Source of the DNA: Methanosarcina sp. KYL-1 | Lineage (GTDB): Archaea; Halobacteriota; Methanosarcinia; Methanosarcinales; Methanosarcinaceae | Direction of reading: 5' to 3' | NCBI RefSeq assembly: GCF_024372725.1 | Contig: NZ_VOUA01000001.1 | Location: forward strand, 62,001-126,000 | DNA length: 64,000 bases | In this document: positions 16,586 through 29,507 of the stretch, piece by piece | Numbering within the stretch: the stretch's first letter is position 1 | Layout of the letters: each line of letters starts with the position of its first letter | Notes under the pieces: generated by a model | The model's input: only the letters and a program-made list of their open reading frames with translations | Databases searched by the model: none | Told to the model about the DNA's origin: nothing | Translations under genes and position numbers: made by a program

Positions 16586-16744
16586 CATAAAAAATAATAA
16601 ATAGTGGAGTAAAATTACATTTTCCGGCTGTGTTTTCTTATTTTATCTAATCCCTTACCGGTTTTTTCAGGATCTTCACCTTTTTCGGTCTCTTTTACTT
16701 TTTTATTTTTCTTTTTACTCTGCTTTTTCCCTTAATTGTTTATT

Positions 16745-16815
16745 CTGGAAAGGCCGGCCACCTTCGGTGTCCGGGACAAAAACGATGGGAGATGATGAAT
16801 TCTGGTTGTACGGGA
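16745..16815 (+). repeat. Dispersed hairpin element, copy 1
   Basis: Begins CTGGAAAGGCCGGCCACC, includes the TTCG-looped inverted repeat CCACCTTCGGTG, and continues GGGACAAAAACGATGGGAG. It matches 24268-24340 over ~70 bases and 28365-28401 over the hairpin part. The rest of the 16410-16970 spacer holds TATA-like AT-rich sequence before the next small gene. Confidence 0.7.
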
Positions 16816-16970
16816 TAAAAAATCCTTTTTCTATTCAAGGCTTTATTTTTCTGGAAATACTTATCGTTTGATGGTCTTACCAGAACATTTATTATAAATT
16901 GGTTTTAATTAGTTTATAAATTTCAAAAGAAAATTCCTGAGTTTTTTGTGTTCCTGGGGATGAGCTATTA

Positions 16971-17493: not shown

Positions 17494-18219
17494 TCACATA
17501 TTGAGCCATTTTAACAGGTCTGCTTCGAGAGCCGGGTTCACAAAATATTTCCTGGATCTGCCTTCTGTTTCGGAAAGAATGATTCTGTCGTCCCTTAAAC
17601 TCTTTATATGCCAGTATGTGGTGCTTTTGTCCAGATACAGGTCCTCTGAAAGTTCCTTGTTTGTTATTTCGGGCTTTTCCAGGATCTTAAGAAGTATCTG
17701 CTTTCGTGTGCTGCTTTTGAGATGTGCTATTATTATCTTTTCACTGCTTGCGAAAACATCGGAATTTTGAAAGACCCTTGTGAATTTTCCGGCCCACATT
17801 AAGCTTATCTTATTTCCGGCTTTAAGCATTTCAAGGTGGAACCTCACAGCCCCCCGGTTAATTTCCAGGTCTCTTGAGATTTCCGAGACCGTGCACCCCG
17901 GGACCTGCCGTATGTGACGGTATATTTTCTGCCTGTTTTCATTTCCCCGCGGGATTCTTACCTTGCCCAGGATTAAGGGGACCATTTTGAGTATGGAAGC
18001 AAAGGCAGCTAGATATCCTATTATGTAAGCTATCTTGAATGATAACGGAAATTCCCAGAATGAGTACGTTCTGTCCGCCCCGCTCATGTCAACGGCATCG
18101 CCCAGCTTATCGAGTTCTTCCTGAGGCGGGCAGGGGCTAACAGTATATCTTCCAGTGTCTGCACCGGCTGTGCCTACGTTACTCAGGACCAGAATAAAAA
18201 GTAAGCTCATCTTCCACAT
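17494..18219 (-). CDS. Membrane-anchored winged-helix transcription regulator
   Basis: A 241-residue protein: an N-terminal signal-like helix (MSLLFILVLSNVGTAGA), a ~45-residue outside loop with TVSPCPPQEEL, a second hydrophobic segment near residues 58-85 (FKIAYIIGYLAAFASILKMVPLIL), and then two winged-helix DNA-binding domains. The first has TVSEISRDLEINRGAVRFHLEML; the second has ITNKELSEDLYLDKSTTYWHIKSL with a wing EGRSRKYFVNP. Membrane-tethered two-wing regulators of this kind are common in Methanosarcina. It lies 24 bases after the secreted protein gene at 18244 and is probably cotranscribed, so an outside signal may reach it. It is the best local candidate to control the cassettes at 19-28 kb. 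Confidence 0.85.
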   Translation of the reverse strand: MWKMSLLFILVLSNVGTAGADTGRYTVSPCPPQEELDKLGDAVDMSGADRTYSFWEFPLSFKIAYIIGYLAAFASILKMVPLILGKVRIPRGNENRQKIYRHIRQVPGCTVSEISRDLEINRGAVRFHLEMLKAGNKISLMWAGKFTRVFQNSDVFASSEKIIIAHLKSSTRKQILLKILEKPEITNKELSEDLYLDKSTTYWHIKSLRDDRIILSETEGRSRKYFVNPALEADLLKWLNM

Positions 18220-18243
18220 AGCTGGTCCATAATTTCGATTAAT

Positions 18244-18705
18244 TCAGATTGTATAATCTTCTGTCCCGGTTACCCTGTACCCGTATACCTCATACTTCCA
18301 GGTTCCCGTTTCAATTCCGTTTGGATCTTGAATATTCAGGCAAATCCTGCCGTCAATTGTCCCATCTGCATTATCATAATAAGGACCCAGCACCGAGCCG
18401 TCAGGAGTATACACCTTGAGCCGGAGTGAATCCGTCGAATCTCCCCAGTTAAGATCCACAACCAGAACGGTGAGGCCGCTACCTATGTTTTTTCCATGCA
18501 GGTTTGTCTCTCCCTGGCTTATCGTATCATAAACTGTCAGGATGCCGAGATCTTCTTCAGTTGTTTCGATTTCAGTAAAATATGCAGGTGTTACGGTATA
18601 TCTGTTTGCGGATTCTGCTTTTTCCATATTTTCAGCTGTCGCTGTTGCAGTCACAGACACAAAAAATAGAATCATCAATATTAGCAGGATTGTCTTCTTC
18701 AACAT
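18244..18705 (-). CDS. Secreted protein, P-domain-like beta fold
   Basis: A 153-residue exported protein with a clear signal peptide (KKTILLILMILFFVSVTATATA). The mature part is beta-rich: TVYDTISQGETNLHGKNIGSGLTVLVVDLNWGDSTDSLRLKVYTPDGSVLGPYYDNADGTIDGRICLNI. The block DSLRLKVYTPDGSVLGPY with GTWKYEVYGY resembles the P-domain or pre-peptidase C-terminal fold found in secreted archaeal proteins. It shares the TVTP/TVSP motif after its signal with the regulator encoded next (RYTVTPAYF and RYTVSPCPP), suggesting that the two interact or share ancestry. It could be a sensed ligand or co-sensor. Confidence 0.7.
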   Translation of the reverse strand: MLKKTILLILMILFFVSVTATATAENMEKAESANRYTVTPAYFTEIETTEEDLGILTVYDTISQGETNLHGKNIGSGLTVLVVDLNWGDSTDSLRLKVYTPDGSVLGPYYDNADGTIDGRICLNIQDPNGIETGTWKYEVYGYRVTGTEDYTI

Positions 18706-18771: not shown

Positions 18772-18921
18772 AAAATTAATTGTCGTATTACAACTTCTCT
18801 GTAAATCAAAGATATTGGGATAGTATAGAACTTTAAATTCACTATCTGTATGTCTTTTTCAAAAAAAATGTTCTCAAAACTCGAATCTTAATTATCTGAA
18901 AATTAGTAGTATTGCCCACTT

Positions 18922-18943
18922 GATAGTTTGATGATTTGGACAT
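18922..18943 (+). promoter_or_regulatory. Operator-like site, cassette A
   Basis: GATAGTTTGATGATTTGGAC followed by AT, then AT-rich sequence. Similar 20-base sequences precede cassettes B (22276) and C (26576). The site lies 58 bases before the conserved leader, 24 more than in B and C, so the exact transcription start of A is less clear. Confidence 0.6.
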
Positions 18944-19000
18944 AAATTATTTATTATGTATGTTCGATAGAAAAGTCTGAACATCTAAGAATATGTTTGA

Positions 19001-19130
19001 TGGAGTTCAAACGAACTTTCCAGAGCCAATTTGAACTCCACATTGCCCGGAGGCAAAGAAATGTTAGCTTTGGGAGTACTTAAGGTTTACCTGATTTGCC
19101 TCTGGAGTAAAGAAAAGAGGCAAAGAAGAA
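19001..19130 (+). promoter_or_regulatory. Structured 5' leader A (candidate RNA switch)
   Basis: Starts with an 11-bp perfect hairpin, TGGAGTTCAAA (19001-19011) pairing with TTTGAACTCCA (19030-19040). Downstream, GAGGCAAA occurs twice, at 19050-19057 and at 19117-19124, where it contains the Shine-Dalgarno GAGG ten bases before the ATG. Both can pair with the single TTTGCCTC at 19095-19102, so the pairings exclude each other. The upstream copy can also close a small hairpin, TTGCC-CGGA-GGCAA (19043-19056). Leaders B and C conserve the arrangement with different Shine-Dalgarno helices. Confidence 0.7.
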
Positions 19131-20664: not shown

Positions 20665-21869
20665 AAATCACAGGAGGGCTGGCTTTGAGAATTTCGGGGT
20701 TGTGTCTGATTATAAAATTTTGTTGTCTGATGACGTTCTTCTTTTTGTTAATCACTGCCGGTACCGGGTCCGCAGACACAATTACGGTAGATGGCAATGG
20801 GGGAGCAGATTATACCTCGATACAGGAAGCTGTCGGTAACGCAATATCAGGCGATACGATTTTTGTCTATCCCGGCACGTATGAGGAAAATGTGAACGTG
20901 AATAAAGGGGTGACGATCAGGTCCTATTCCGGGAATCCTGATGATACGATTATCCGTGCTGCAAACTCGATGAATGACGTTTTCTATGTGACCGGAAATA
21001 ATGTAAGCATCAGCGGATTTCAGATAAGCGGTGCCGATATAGATGAATATGGGGAAGATAAAGCCGGGATATATTTAGAAGGGAGCAACAGGACTGTTAT
21101 AAGCGGCAATAATATTTCCTCAAACAGTTTTGGTATATTTATTCTCGAATCGTCCCACAATAGTGTTTTTGATAACAACGTATCCAAATGCAGAATTGGT
21201 ATTTTTTTATGGAACTCCAGTAACAACAAGTTGAATAATAATATTTTAAACCTGAATAATCATGAGGGCATACTTCTCTATGAATTCTGCAATAACAATG
21301 AATTGAGCAACAATACTGAAAATCGTGCAGGGTCTGGAATCGGGCTGGAGTTTTTCTGCAATAACAATACGCTTGTTAATAATACTGCATCAAATAACCT
21401 TTTAGGTATTCTTCTAAGAAAATCAAACCATAACTCCCTTATTGACAACTCTGCAAACTCAAACGAGGGGAGCGGCATCACTCTCGATGACAGCAGCAAC
21501 AACGTCCTGTTTAACAATACTGCAAATTCCAATACCTACAGTGGTATATTTTTGATAGGTTCTTCTGACAATAAACTGGATAGCAATAACGCTTCTAACA
21601 ACCCGGGTTATGGAATAAACGTCAACAATTCCAGCAGGAACAACGTTTTGGTGAACAACGTCGCAAATTCAAACGGCAAAGAAGACATCATTTTTGCTGA
21701 CCCTGAAAACAACACGATAAAAGGGCCGGTAGAGGATGTTCCGTTTCCGGGTTTTGCGCTGGCAGTTGCTGTGGTTTTGCTTGCATCTTTAATTTTTGGC
21801 AGAAAAATGCGTGGGAAATCAGGCAAAATTACACAAATGCGGAAGTCAAAAAAGCACAAAAAAGAATGA
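20661..21869 (+). CDS. Secreted NosD-like parallel beta-helix protein with PGF-type C-terminal anchor
   Basis: A 402-residue cell-surface protein: a signal peptide (MTFFFLLITAGTGSA), the start of the fold DGNGGADYTSIQEAVGNAISGDTIFVYPGTYEENVNV, and then a long run of right-handed beta-helix repeats of the NosD/pectate-lyase type with Asn ladders (SHNSVFDNNVSKC, SSNNKLNNNIL and so on). The C-terminus is a PGF-CTERM-like sorting signal, PFPGFALAVAVVLLASLIFGRKMR. The ATG at 20661 overlaps the previous stop; a TTG at 20685 with GGAGGG six bases before it is an equally good start. It lies only in cassette A; cassette B keeps just the C-terminal remnant. Confidence 0.85.
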   Translation: MKITGGLALRISGLCLIIKFCCLMTFFFLLITAGTGSADTITVDGNGGADYTSIQEAVGNAISGDTIFVYPGTYEENVNVNKGVTIRSYSGNPDDTIIRAANSMNDVFYVTGNNVSISGFQISGADIDEYGEDKAGIYLEGSNRTVISGNNISSNSFGIFILESSHNSVFDNNVSKCRIGIFLWNSSNNKLNNNILNLNNHEGILLYEFCNNNELSNNTENRAGSGIGLEFFCNNNTLVNNTASNNLLGILLRKSNHNSLIDNSANSNEGSGITLDDSSNNVLFNNTANSNTYSGIFLIGSSDNKLDSNNASNNPGYGINVNNSSRNNVLVNNVANSNGKEDIIFADPENNTIKGPVEDVPFPGFALAVAVVLLASLIFGRKMRGKSGKITQMRKSKKHKKE

Positions 21870-21927: not shown

Positions 21928-22127
21928 TTATTCCTGTTTCCTTGCCATCTTTTTCTTTGCAAGCTTCTCGATAATGCCGAGGTTAAGCTCGCCGCCGCCT
22001 ACACTCAGCTTCCCGCTGGCAACCGCGCTTTCCAGGAGGTGCTGTCCTACAAGGGTGCGGACGATCAGGGTGGTGTAGCCGTTCGGGCTTCCAACCGCGC
22101 CTGCGGAGATGTCGGCTTTGAAAGTGG
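21928..22127 (-). pseudogene. Truncated 3' end of the glutamate-synthase F420 subunit gene, copy 1
   Basis: The minus strand reads about 66 residues matching the C-terminus of the 28473-29507 product: KADISAGAVGSPNGYTTLIVRTLVGQHLLESAV, then SGKLSVGG and IIEKLAKKKMARKQE, with the same stop position. There is no start codon or upstream part. One extra Gly codon is present in the SVGGGE region, but the frame is intact. It is a scar of tandem duplication, more diverged than the second scar at 26230. Confidence 0.85.
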
Positions 22128-22209
22128 TAAATCCAGTTTCATGATCTTGTTTTTATTTGGAGAATCTGACGACAGTAGTTGTCAGATATATTAAATTTCT
22201 GGTCAAAGT

Positions 22210-22310
22210 ATCAAACTATTTATCATACAAAGTAATACTGCTGGAAAAAATGATCATAAATCTAACCTCTTTCTCGATAGTTTGATGATATGGTCAGAAA
22301 ACTTATAAAG
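22210..22310 (+). promoter_or_regulatory. Promoter and operator-like inverted repeat, cassette B
   Basis: ATCAAACTAT (22210-22219) and ATAGTTTGAT (22277-22286) are perfect inverted repeats 57 bases apart. The second belongs to GATAGTTTGATGATATGG, shared with A and C. A TATA candidate, AAACTTATAAAG, lies at 22299-22310, 25-30 bases before the leader, which places the transcript start at the leader hairpin. Confidence 0.65.
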
Positions 22311-22330
22311 AGTTGATTAAAAGTAGTTTA

Positions 22331-22463
22331 TGGAGTTCAAACGAACTTTCCAGAGCCAATTTGAACCCCACTTTGCCCGGAGGCATGAGTTAGTGTTAGC
22401 TTTGTGAATATTTAAGGCTTGCTTGATCCTGCCTCCTGGGAAATGAACAGGAGTGAGTATGAA
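22331..22463 (+). promoter_or_regulatory. Structured 5' leader B (candidate RNA switch)
   Basis: The first hairpin is as in leader A, with one mismatch (22331-22341 with 22360-22370). GGAGGCA (22379-22385) pairs with TGCCTCC (22430-22436). The overlapping CTCCTG (22433-22438) pairs with CAGGAG (22448-22453), which holds the Shine-Dalgarno, ten bases before the ATG at 22464. The Shine-Dalgarno helix therefore differs from leader A but is again perfect. The linker GTGTTAGCTTTG and TTTAAGG is conserved. Confidence 0.7.
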
Positions 22464-24237: not shown

Positions 24238-24267
24238 ACCCAGGTTAGTACTATTTTTTATTTTTAT

Positions 24268-24340
24268 CTGGAAAGGCCGGAAACCTTCGGCGTCCAGGAC
24301 AAAAACGATGGAAGATGACGAATTCAGGTTGTATGGGGTA
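24268..24340 (+). repeat. Dispersed hairpin element, copy 2
   Basis: CTGGAAAGGCCGGAAACC, then TTCGGCGTCCAGGACAAAAA and CGATGGAAGATGACGAATTC. It matches 16745-16815 almost throughout and leads directly into the PGF-CTERM remnant. Confidence 0.7.
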
Positions 24341-24427
24341 GAACTTCCATTTCCGGGTCCTGCGCTGGCAGTTGCTGTAGTCCTGATAGCATCTTTATTT
24401 TTTGGCAGAAAAATGTATGAGAAATAA
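24326..24427 (+). pseudogene. Remnant of PGF-CTERM protein gene
   Basis: Encodes VELPFPGPALAVAVVLIASL then FFGRKMYEK and a stop, almost the same C-terminus as the beta-helix protein at 20661. The DNA after the stop also matches for ~45 bases (CAGGCAAAACTACACAAATG and on). The body of the gene is missing, so cassette B lost its beta-helix gene by deletion or kept only the anchor. Confidence 0.75.
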
Positions 24428-24804: not shown

Positions 24805-26049
24805 TTGTCAGAAATAGTAAACAAATCTTGCGGTTTAGATATCCACAAAAGTTTTTTCATCGCCACAATTCTTAGCCGATCTGATGAAAAACAACAATTC
24901 CGCCTTAACAGAGATGATGATGGAATTTTAACTCTTAAAAACATAGTTCTCTCCGAAAAATGTGATGTTGTTGCATGTGAATCAACAAACGACTTTTGGG
25001 TTCCAATCCATGATTTACTGACAAAACATGTACGTGTTATAGTCGGAAATGCACGTGATATGAAGGCATTTACACACAGAAAGACGGATAAGATTGACTC
25101 TGAGTTCATTGCAAAACTCGCATTGAATGGGATGATTCAGCCTTCAAGAGTCTTTACAAAAGAGCATAGGGACTTTCGTTCGTTGGTTCGTCGTCGTCAT
25201 AAATTTGTTGGGAAGAGAACTGATATTAAAAATGAAGCTCATTCTATTCTCTCATCTGAAATGATACCTCTTAAAGGTATACTTTCAGACATTTTTGGGA
25301 AAAGCGGAAAAAAGATATTATCAGGAATTACTTCTGGCAAGAACCTTGATGACATTATAGCAGGCTTGCCCGCAAATGTCCGCAAAAAAAGCGATCAGAT
25401 AAGAGAAGTTCTTGACAGAGAAATCTCCCAAAGCGCTATGATAAGACTTCAGTCATGTCTAAATCTAATACAACAATTTGATGATGAAATCAAAAAATTA
25501 GAGACACATATTTTCAATTATGTTTACAGCAAGCATGAACATGAAATGAAAATTTTGATGTCTATGCCAGGTATTGGTGAACTTAGCGCAGCCACTTTAA
25601 TTGCTGAAATCAGCGATTTCAGTGATTTTCCATCGGGAGATAAACTTGCTTCATGGCTTGGAATTGTTCCAAATGTGCATCAATCGGCGGATAAATACTA
25701 CAGTGGAAGAATAACCAAGAGAGGTTCAAAAGTAGCTCGATGGATTCTAACCCAAATTGCTCAGGCAGCGGCAAGGAAAAATGGTAGCAAGTTAAAAGAG
25801 TTCTTTGACCGGAAGAAAAAGTCGATTGGACATTCAAAAGCAATTATTGCCCTGGCAAGAAAAATGGCAACAATAATGTGGCACCTAATCAAAAAAGATG
25901 AAATGTATGAAGATGAAATGGGTTATGCGAAGGGAGAAATTCTAAGGAGAAAGATTGTTGAGAGTGAACCATTTTCAATTAATGAATGCATCTCAATAAT
26001 CAGTGGAATTTCCGCCATTGTGTATAAAAAAGAGGGTGATGGAACTTGA
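24805..26049 (+). CDS. IS110-family DEDD transposase
   Basis: A 414-residue recombinase started by TTG at 24805, with GGAG nine bases upstream. The N-terminal DEDD domain shows GLDIHKSFFIA (first Asp), VVACESTNDFWVP (Glu) and KTDKIDSEFIAKLA (Asp, Asp). The C-terminal Tnp20 domain has MPGIGELSAATLIAEI and LASWLGIVPNVHQSADKYYSGRITKRGSKVARWIL, including the catalytic Ser of KRGS. No stop or frameshift interrupts it, so the element may still be active. The family moves through a noncoding bridge RNA and makes no long target duplication. Confidence 0.95.
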   Translation: MSEIVNKSCGLDIHKSFFIATILSRSDEKQQFRLNRDDDGILTLKNIVLSEKCDVVACESTNDFWVPIHDLLTKHVRVIVGNARDMKAFTHRKTDKIDSEFIAKLALNGMIQPSRVFTKEHRDFRSLVRRRHKFVGKRTDIKNEAHSILSSEMIPLKGILSDIFGKSGKKILSGITSGKNLDDIIAGLPANVRKKSDQIREVLDREISQSAMIRLQSCLNLIQQFDDEIKKLETHIFNYVYSKHEHEMKILMSMPGIGELSAATLIAEISDFSDFPSGDKLASWLGIVPNVHQSADKYYSGRITKRGSKVARWILTQIAQAAARKNGSKLKEFFDRKKKSIGHSKAIIALARKMATIMWHLIKKDEMYEDEMGYAKGEILRRKIVESEPFSINECISIISGISAIVYKKEGDGT

Positions 26050-26229
26050 AGATGTAGCAACATTCCGGACCCTGATCATTCAAATTTATGGGGCAAAAAC
26101 CCCATATAAACTTCTAATATCACCACGAATTCTTAGAGAGGGTCCTGATAGTGAAATGGATGGCACTTTCATGCCAAATGAAATAAAGATGAAGCCCAAA
26201 GCTTCACCTTTCAAGTTTATTCTATAATT

Positions 26230-26441
26230 TTATTCCTGTTTTCTCGCCATCTTCTTCGTGGCAAGCTTCTCGATAATCCCCAGGCTGACCTCGCCGCCTA
26301 CGCTCAGCTTCCCGCTGGCAACTGCGCTTTCCAGAAGGTGCTGTCCGACAAGGGTGCGGACTACAAGGGTGGTGTAGCCGTCGGGGCTTCCCACTGCGCC
26401 TGCGGAGATGTCGGCTTTGAGAGCGGCAAATACAGTTTCAT
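26230..26441 (-). pseudogene. Truncated 3' end of the glutamate-synthase F420 subunit gene, copy 2
   Basis: The minus strand encodes ALKADISAGAVGSPDGYTTL and continues LVVRTLVGQHLLESAVASG, ending IIEKLATKKMARKQE, nearly identical to the end of the 28473-29507 product. Matching stops at about 26441, as in the first scar, and passes into cassette promoter DNA. A methionine-started frame through it extends to 26475 by chance. It is closer to the intact gene than copy 1. Confidence 0.88.
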
Positions 26442-26508
26442 GATCTTGTTTTTTATTTGGTAAATCTGGCGGCAATAGTGGTCAGGTATATAATATTTCT
26501 GTTCAAAC

Positions 26509-26610
26509 TATCAAACTGTTTGTCATATAAAGTAATATTATTGGAAAAAATGATTATAAATATTGCCTCATTCCTGATAGTTTGATGGTTTGGCCCGAAA
26601 ACTTATACAG
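26509..26610 (+). promoter_or_regulatory. Promoter and operator-like repeats, cassette C
   Basis: TATCAAACT near 26509 and GATAGTTTGATGGTTTGG at 26576 form the same inverted pattern as in cassette B. AAAACTTATACA at 26598-26609 is the TATA candidate, again 25-30 bases before the leader. Confidence 0.6.
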
Positions 26611-26630
26611 TTCTGGTTAAAAGTAATTTA

Positions 26631-26760
26631 TGGAGTTCAAACGAACTTTCCAGAGCCAATTTGAACTCCACATTGCCCGGAGGCAAAGAAGTGTTAGCTT
26701 TGAAAGTACTTAAGGTTTGCTTGATTCTGCCTCGGGAACAAATGTACGAGGTAAAAATAA
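26631..26760 (+). promoter_or_regulatory. Structured 5' leader C (candidate RNA switch)
   Basis: First hairpin perfect over 11 bp (26631-26641 with 26660-26670). GAGGCA (26680-26685) pairs with TGCCTC (26728-26733). The overlapping CCTCG (26730-26734) pairs with CGAGG (26747-26751), which holds the Shine-Dalgarno nine bases before the ATG. The conserved linker GTGTTAGCTTTG and ACTTAAGGTTTGC is present. Confidence 0.7.
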
Positions 26761-28448: not shown

Positions 28449-28472
28449 AAGTTAATTTCTGTTTTGCAAGTT

Positions 28473-29507
28473 TTATTTCTGCTTCCGCTCGAGCTTCTTT
28501 GTGGCCAGCTTCTCGATAATCCCCAGGCTGACCTCGCCGCCTACGCTCAGCTTCCCGCTGGCAACTGCGCTTTCCAGAAGGTGCTGTCCGACAAGGGTGC
28601 GGACGATCAGGGTGGTGTAGCCGTCAGGGCTTCCAACTGCGCCTGCGGAGATGTCGGCTTTGAGGGCTGTAAAGTCCGTGCAGACGTGGCAGCCGGGGCG
28701 GACGGTGTCCTCAAGCTCGGCAAGTGGGATCACATACTGGGTCCCGTTGTCGAGGGTGATTTCGAGCTTGCCCTTGACGTCGATGCGGCAGACTTTCATG
28801 GGTTCGAGGGCGTACTCGCTTTTCAGCTTGCCTGCAATCAGCTTTTCGTAGTCGAAGCTTTCGGTACAGAAGAGCCCGAGCACGAAGCGGATGGATTTCT
28901 TGTAGGGGCTGACAAGCTGGTGGTCGGACTCAAGCATCTTGCGGACTGCCTGGACGACACAGGGGACTCCCACAACTGCAATGTTCCTGTACTTCCGGGT
29001 CACAACGGCTTCCTTAAGCGCCGAGACCAGGGGGACCCACCAGTTGTAGCGGCTTCCGGCCTGTCCAATGAGGGCTTCGCTCCTGGTGATTACCATGGAG
29101 TGCGGCTTAAGGGTCCAGGGGTCTTCGGTGACCGTGACCACTGCGTCCACAAGGCCGGTGTCCAGGGCGTTTGCAAGGATTGCTGTAACGGCTCCTCCGC
29201 TCTGCTTTCTCGGGATGTCGAATTCTGCCTTTCCGGCAGTGATCTCCAGGTAGTCCCCGAGCAGGCTTGAAGGCTGTTCATCGAGCCTCGGGCAGACCTC
29301 GTAGCAGGCCCCGCAGGGCACGTCATCAACGGCGGCTTTGCAGTAGCCGTTGCTCTTCGGGGTTGCGGAATCGCCGCCGGTTTCGAAGTACAGGGCGTCA
29401 GCAGGGCAGACTGCAATGCAGGCCCCACAGCCTGAGCAGAGGCCGGTGTCCCAGACTTTTGATTTAAGGTCAAGGTAAGTCTTGCTTATTGGTTTCTTTT
29501 CTGCCAT
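28473..29507 (-). CDS. F420-type (FrhB/FpoF-like) subunit linked to glutamate synthase
   Basis: A 344-residue protein of the F420 hydrogenase/dehydrogenase beta-subunit family. The N-terminus has a [4Fe-4S] ferredoxin motif, CSGCGACIAVCPADAL, and a second, incomplete Cys set, CGACYEVCP. The FrhB core follows: KQSGGAVTAILANAL, VGVPCVVQAVRKM, GLFCTESFDYEKL and CTDFTALKADISAGAVG. It binds FAD and oxidises or reduces F420. It is the last of four genes with the split glutamate synthase, 6 bases after the GXGXG subunit, so it probably feeds F420H2 electrons to glutamate synthesis; such enzymes have been proposed for methanogens. Its 3' end is copied twice in the island to the left. Confidence 0.85.
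   Translation of the reverse strand: MAEKKPISKTYLDLKSKVWDTGLCSGCGACIAVCPADALYFETGGDSATPKSNGYCKAAVDDVPCGACYEVCPRLDEQPSSLLGDYLEITAGKAEFDIPRKQSGGAVTAILANALDTGLVDAVVTVTEDPWTLKPHSMVITRSEALIGQAGSRYNWWVPLVSALKEAVVTRKYRNIAVVGVPCVVQAVRKMLESDHQLVSPYKKSIRFVLGLFCTESFDYEKLIAGKLKSEYALEPMKVCRIDVKGKLEITLDNGTQYVIPLAELEDTVRPGCHVCTDFTALKADISAGAVGSPDGYTTLIVRTLVGQHLLESAVASGKLSVGGEVSLGIIEKLATKKLERKQK

Follow-up and report, generated by a model that had tools for sequence, protein, structure and literature searches.

Do three similar 5′ leaders in a Methanosarcina genome hide and free the Shine–Dalgarno sequences of the genes that follow them, and what would throw such a switch? We analysed a 64,000-nucleotide stretch of Methanosarcina sp. 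KYL-1 DNA (the window), in which leaders A, B and C are nearly identical over ~60 bases and similar up to the start codon. Each leader contains three strands that can enter two mutually exclusive pairings: strand 1 with strand 2, which leaves the Shine–Dalgarno free, and strand 2 with strand 3, the Shine–Dalgarno strand, which hides it. The repeats reported by the first-pass annotation were all found where it had placed them; its count of three copies was too low, as a DNA search finds seven in the genome, three in the window and four on another contig. The leaders and their parts are arranged as follows.

18999-19130, plus strand: leader A, a 5′ UTR (match to 19133; 129.8 bits with covariance model R1), followed at ATG 19131 on the same strand by a gene for a secreted M12-type metallopeptidase (Pfam Reprolysin_5)
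19001-19040: SL1 hairpin of A, with arms 19001-19011 and 19030-19040
19050-19057, plus strand: strand 1 of A (anti-anti-Shine–Dalgarno), GAGGCAAA
19066-19087, plus strand: P3 linker hairpin of A, with arms 19066-19072 and 19081-19087
19095-19102, plus strand: strand 2 of A (anti-Shine–Dalgarno), TTTGCCTC
19117-19124, plus strand: strand 3 of A, the Shine–Dalgarno strand, GAGGCAAA
22302-22310, plus strand: TATA-like box of mRNA B, CTTATAAAG, ~25 bases upstream of the leader start
22329-22463, plus strand: leader B (covariance model, 136.4 bits), followed at ATG 22464 on the same strand by a gene for a secreted M12-type metallopeptidase
22379-22385, plus strand: strand 1 of B, GGAGGCA
22398-22419, plus strand: P3 linker hairpin of B; the minus strand holds the antisense TATA-like motif GCCTTAAATATTC
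22430-22438, plus strand: strand 2 of B, TGCCTCCTG
22448-22453, plus strand: strand 3 of B, Shine–Dalgarno CAGGAG
26602-26610, plus strand: TATA-like box of mRNA C, CTTATACAG
26629-26760, plus strand: leader C (covariance model, 136.8 bits), followed at ATG 26761 on the same strand by a gene for a secreted protein with no Pfam family
26679-26685, plus strand: strand 1 of C, GGAGGCA
26696-26717, plus strand: P3 linker hairpin of C, with an antisense promoter motif on the minus strand
26728-26734, plus strand: strand 2 of C, TGCCTCG
26747-26751, plus strand: strand 3 of C, Shine–Dalgarno CGAGG

Across 107 copies, a TATA-like composition recurs at −26 to −21 relative to the leader start.

We compared the pairing of each strand with its own partner and with the corresponding strands of other leaders. 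Among 83 non-redundant Methanosarcina leaders, strand 2 paired far better with its own Shine–Dalgarno strand than with those of other leaders (z −6.7, 0/5000 swaps). The signal for strands 1 and 2 was weaker in this set (z −2.1, 95/5000 swaps) because both strands are nearly invariant there. Leaders from other genera gave z −6.6 for strand 1:2 and z −5.5 for strand 2:Shine–Dalgarno, with 0/5000 swaps each, and confining the swaps within a genus gave z −6.0 and z −6.6, respectively. Support for strand 2:Shine–Dalgarno was weaker in the most distant families (48/5000), and the control pairing of strand 1 with strand 3 gave no signal in the swap tests. SL1, strand 1:2 and P3 were paired in 91% of cells in 80 Methanosarcina leaders, with 26 double-changed cells versus 8.2 ± 2.5 after shuffling. 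The same helices gave 137 double-changed cells versus 49 ± 5 shuffled in 69 distinct leaders from other genera (90% paired) and 57 versus 19.7 ± 3.7 in three further families, in alignments fitted to the covariance model, a procedure biased towards these helices; because the model lacks the strand 2:Shine–Dalgarno helix, the test of that helix is free of this bias. Without guidance, RNAalifold recovered the core of both strand 1:2 and P3 in the Methanosarcina leaders. At the flank of CTCCT/AGGAG, G:C (22) alternates with A:T (10) (0/5000 shuffles), and compensation is visible in CTCCTG/CAGGAG, CTCCTAG/CTAGGAG and CTCCTTG/CAAGGAG, and in CTTTT/AAAAG in other genera. A candidate local TGCC/GGCA hairpin at strand 1 showed no covariation and was rejected. 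The covariation claimed earlier is far above chance, and covariation supports the leader in three independent sets. We conclude that a cis-acting leader predicted to hide or free the Shine–Dalgarno is well supported; this part of the original proposal stands on the covariation, and the ligand, temperature and protein triggers that accompanied it gained no support.

A search with a covariance model, which the first-pass annotation had proposed as a check, indicates that the element is widespread and that covariation persists in more homologues. Relatives were detected by DNA search in 26 of the 31 genomes of the genus, and profile searches returned 133 distinct leader copies, 118 of them near full length. 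The covariance model, built from 80 leader copies, places the element in 69/112 genomes of the family (10/14 genera) and 100/238 genomes of the class, with the matches listed all falling in four families of one order. Counts of model matches are upper bounds, inflated by weaker opposite-strand echoes (three true matches and three echoes in the window), which arise because SL1 is nearly palindromic. Among the loci L253-L265, from more distant families, some leaders retain SL1, P3 and strand 1:2 without a clear Shine–Dalgarno strand, so another output may be possible there.

Which strand carries the conserved RNA can be read from G-U pairs, as a G-U pair persists on one strand only. P3 cells were paired in 93.6% of cases when read as sense versus 69.0% as antisense (92.0% versus 61.5% in other genera), whereas SL1 cells were paired in 88.3% as sense versus 95.5% as antisense (88.7% versus 93.4% in other genera). 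This asymmetry suggests that P3 is maintained for the mRNA and SL1 for an antisense RNA. It was uninformative for the strand 1:2 helix, where the plus strand was favoured in one set and the minus strand in two others. Inside P3 lies an antisense YTTAAN motif (AGCCTTAAATAT, for instance), whose centre is 26-29 bases upstream of the antisense start in 75/80, 64/73 and 28/31 leaders of three sets. The usual place of an archaeal TATA box is ~26-29 bases before the start. Since P3 contains this TATA-like motif, the linker is a hairpin and probably an antisense promoter at once. The earlier suggestion that the conserved linker is a binding site gives way to this account, in which its conserved bases are explained by the covarying P3 hairpin and the promoter-like motif.

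The best explanation for the control of these leaders is an antisense RNA, a reading that draws on position, modelling and the experimental study of one relative. That relative is sRNA162 of M. mazei (RF02792), the only substantial Rfam match around the leaders in a search of 4227 families, and it lies on the minus strand. The predicted antisense genes are as follows.

18865-19054, minus strand: predicted antisense RNA of A, with a putative +1 at 19054 and an uncertain 3′ end
22193-22384, minus strand: sRNA162-like antisense gene of B (RF02792 positions 1-190, 40.1 bits, E 1.6e-4, sub-threshold)
26494-26684, minus strand: sRNA162-like antisense gene of C (RF02792 positions 1-190, 52.3 bits, E 2.7e-7, sub-threshold)

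The antisense 5′ ends of C (26684) and B (22384) fall inside strand 1. Five of the seven genome copies (B, C and three more, with A excluded) match RF02792 over its full length with the 5′ end at strand 1, and the antisense start coincides with strand 1 in every Rfam-matched copy of the genome. The top score among the genome copies was 54.3 bits, and no copy reached the RF02792 gathering score of 78 bits. The antisense RNA of A has a 5′ domain and an upstream motif as in B and C, has a body diverged from sRNA162 and gave no Rfam match. In most copies, SL3 of sRNA162 could not be detected as a long, perfect stem, and a perfect inverted repeat resembling SL3 upstream of every copy was rejected, as it showed no excess over shuffled sequence. 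The sRNA162-like genes run antisense to the 5′ UTR of the downstream gene. Judged by their sequence, leaders A-C are related to sRNA162 loci yet fall short of the formal Rfam threshold. The RNA, put forward earlier as a candidate new switch, is not wholly new, since the M. mazei sRNA162 locus described in 2012 has the same layout (PMC3510493).

The 191-base sRNA162 has its gene between MM2442 and that of an ArsR-type regulator; its overlap with the MM2442 5′ UTR spans 65 bases, and it binds this UTR through nucleotides 1-65 (PMC3510493). A further hallmark of sRNA162 is a single-stranded linker that pairs in trans with the mRNA of the ArsR-type regulator. Its overexpression led to a slight drop in MM2442 mRNA, and its role on MM2442 was termed elusive; its expression and its processing to 55-65-nucleotide 5′ fragments were reported in M. 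mazei only (PMC3510493). The sRNA162/sRNA171 and MM2442 leader system resembles the loci described here in that the antisense starts at strand 1, SL1 lies inside the 65-base overlap, the antisense promoter lies inside the leader, the downstream protein is exported and a homologous ArsR-type operon adjoins leader A. It differs in its known range, as sRNA162 homologues were reported in M. acetivorans and M. barkeri only (PMC3510493), whereas the element here spans four families.

One locus, L125, links the two systems. It is an RF02792-type locus (214.8 bits) that carries AGGCAAG (strand 1), CTTGCCTCTT (strand 2) and AAGAGG/AAGAGGTGG (strand 3) in the same order. Counted by hand from its expected transcript start, L125 has an overlap of 63-65 bases and an in-frame ATG at ~183, which fit the published MM2442 values of 65 for the overlap and 184 for the start codon distance (PMC3510493); L125 is therefore probably the MM2442 locus. 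About 42 bases upstream of the ATG is a TTG preceded by a good Shine–Dalgarno, AAGAGGTGG. No Shine–Dalgarno switch was described, and MM2442 was stated to be without a ribosome-binding site (PMC3510493), a remark that is probably explained by a start annotated too late. The probable MM2442 protein of L125 (649-1425, minus strand) probably begins at the TTG, not at the likely annotated ATG. A folding model predicts that the Shine–Dalgarno of this MM2442-like leader is hidden already without antisense (0.03), and also with it, so the default state may differ among copies.

We modelled the effect of covering parts of the leader on the probability that the Shine–Dalgarno is unpaired. This probability averaged 0.54 in free leaders, 0.21 with strand 1 masked and 0.59 with SL1 alone masked, and a scan with an 8-base mask had its strongest effect at strand 1. 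Masking the antisense-covered part in other genera lowered the value from 0.70 to 0.18. When A, B and C were each folded together with the 5′ domain of the antisense, the value fell from 0.62, 0.43 and 0.71 to 0.00, 0.00 and 0.01, respectively.

We propose that each leader would form one side of an RNA module that is transcribed in both directions. Its mRNA would start ~130 bases upstream of the start codon, and its default fold would comprise SL1 and then a long hairpin, with strand 1:2 beneath P3 and the Shine–Dalgarno largely free. An sRNA162-family antisense RNA would initiate opposite strand 1, from a promoter within P3, and its first ~54 bases would be the full complement of the 5′ part of the mRNA. 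Antisense binding would take strand 1 and free strand 2, which would then pair with the Shine–Dalgarno strand and turn off translation of the exported protein. On sequence and modelling, we give a probability of roughly 0.7 to this reading, an antisense-gated translational attenuator in which the Shine–Dalgarno is hidden upon antisense binding. We infer that binding would flip the Shine–Dalgarno hairpin in cells, with repression as the usual outcome; RNase cleavage of a complete sense–antisense duplex or transcription interference could provide other routes.

What marks an attenuator is found here: the two exclusive structures are both conserved, and the antisense covers the strand that blocks the OFF hairpin, as indicated by sequence, the RF02792 5′ end and the modelled effect. 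The pT181 attenuator likewise has a leader with two exclusive structures and an antisense RNA complementary to its 5′ part; there, the antisense takes the anti-terminator strand, allowing an alternative hairpin with the AGGAG ribosome site (PMC4878617, PMC5435934). pT181 acts mainly through transcription termination and belongs to a bacterial plasmid (PMC4878617, PMC5435934), whereas the leaders here have no U-run after the hairpin, are archaeal and chromosomal, occur in several copies per genome and precede exported proteins; we claim no homology. Translational riboswitches and RNA thermometers also govern Shine–Dalgarno access through anti-Shine–Dalgarno and anti-anti-Shine–Dalgarno strands, but the leaders here showed no aptamer-like conserved unpaired core and have an overlapping antisense gene.

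The three-strand leader might be real and yet respond to a metabolite, a protein or ribosome traffic, with the antisense acting apart through duplex formation and decay. The covariation of P3 and strand 1:2 concerns the sense strand, the linker is well conserved and the MM2442-like leader is predicted to be hidden irrespective of antisense, all of which fit such a trigger. We nevertheless regard it as unlikely: P3 and the antisense TATA-like motif explain the conserved linker bases, strand 1 is the antisense start in all Rfam-matched genome copies and no regulatory RNA of Rfam matches the plus strand over the leaders. A riboswitch in particular was rejected, with no plus-strand match over the leaders among the 4227 Rfam families and no aptamer-like core on inspection of three alignments. 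Control by a leader peptide, in which ribosomes on a leaderless upstream ORF from an ATG or GTG at the transcript start remodel the leader, is quite improbable. Upstream ORFs were proposed for MM2442 in 2012, the predicted 5′ end carries an ATG or GTG in 73/80 leaders, and A, B and C encode similar peptides of 25-27 residues. However, the ORFs range from 4 to 43 codons, their frame is broken by indels, third positions are not the most variable and SL1 pairing also accounts for the RTG.

An RNA thermosensor, with heat melting the Shine–Dalgarno hairpin, would recall the temperature-dependent 5′ UTRs masking ribosome sites that a dRNA-seq study of Methanolobus psychrophilus proposed (PMC5378194). 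Warming from 10 °C to 55 °C raises the predicted accessibility of the leaders only gradually (0.48 to 0.67), without a sharp melting step, and a thermosensor would not need the strand 1:2 covariation, so we think this mechanism very improbable. In favour of recent duplication, B and C share 236 upstream bases (85%) and A and B encode paralogues. That duplication alone explains the likeness, with incidental pairings, has next to no likelihood, as the arrangement and its compensatory changes recur in four families, before 38 dissimilar groups of mature proteins; as a full account it is refuted by the covariation. The antisense-gated attenuator remains our preferred reading.

The genes under this putative control have exported products in common. 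A signal-like N-terminus (positive charge and then a hydrophobic stretch) is present in 134/139 downstream proteins of at least 60 residues, as judged by a plain hydropathy criterion in place of a trained predictor. Just 83 proteins were counted with signal peptides in Methanolobus psychrophilus (PMC5378194), and by this comparison the leader seems to belong to the control of exported proteins. The mature parts of the 139 proteins form 38 groups without detectable mutual similarity, including M12-type and C39-type peptidases. Signal peptides are alike (for example, ...FVPAVSA) across unrelated mature proteins, as if leader and signal peptide formed a mobile cassette.

The surroundings of the leaders contain further genes and repeats, as follows.

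17494-18705, minus strand: two-gene operon beside leader A, encoding an unknown exported protein (18244-18705) and an ArsR-type winged-HTH regulator (17494-18219; Pfam HTH_5)
21929-22131, 26228-26430 and 28471-28673: three copies (72-92%) of a 203-base stretch
24805-26049: IS110-family transposase gene between leaders B and C
28473-29507, minus strand: intact FrhB-like gene, named from sequence only
16739-16829 and 24262-24352, and 21739-21819 and 24345-24425: two repeat pairs (84-85%)

The operon beside A has 54% identity over 93 amino acids and 28% over 227 amino acids to the L125 proteins, and is homologous to the pair beside sRNA162, although in the reverse orientation to that of M. mazei. 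Among the copies of the 203-base stretch, 28471-28673 lies at the 3′ end of the FrhB-like gene, and the other two resemble gene fragments directly upstream of leaders B and C. The transposase may have aided copying of the cassette. A C-terminal FPFPGFALAVAVVLLASL-type tail is encoded by the second repeat pair, suggesting a NosD/beta-helix surface gene remnant at 24262-24425. A plasmid or phage origin was rejected, as no match was found.

sRNA162 was the first archaeal antisense RNA to be characterised, and its cis mechanism was left open in 2012; a testable mechanism is now proposed, along with a likely correction of the MM2442 start codon. What were two M. mazei loci become an RNA family across four families of one order. 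We would put even odds on a broader picture, an order-wide archaeal family of overlapping sense–antisense modules in which the same DNA serves as mRNA hairpin and antisense promoter. In this picture, a genome has up to roughly a dozen or more pairs of paralogues whose 5′ domains are nearly identical within groups, and the antisense RNAs could act across copies as a network that determines which exported proteins are produced. The results point to a single post-transcriptional control for a large set of exported proteins, many of them functionally uncharacterised. If true, archaea would have a natural translation switch that is chromosomal and gated by antisense RNA.
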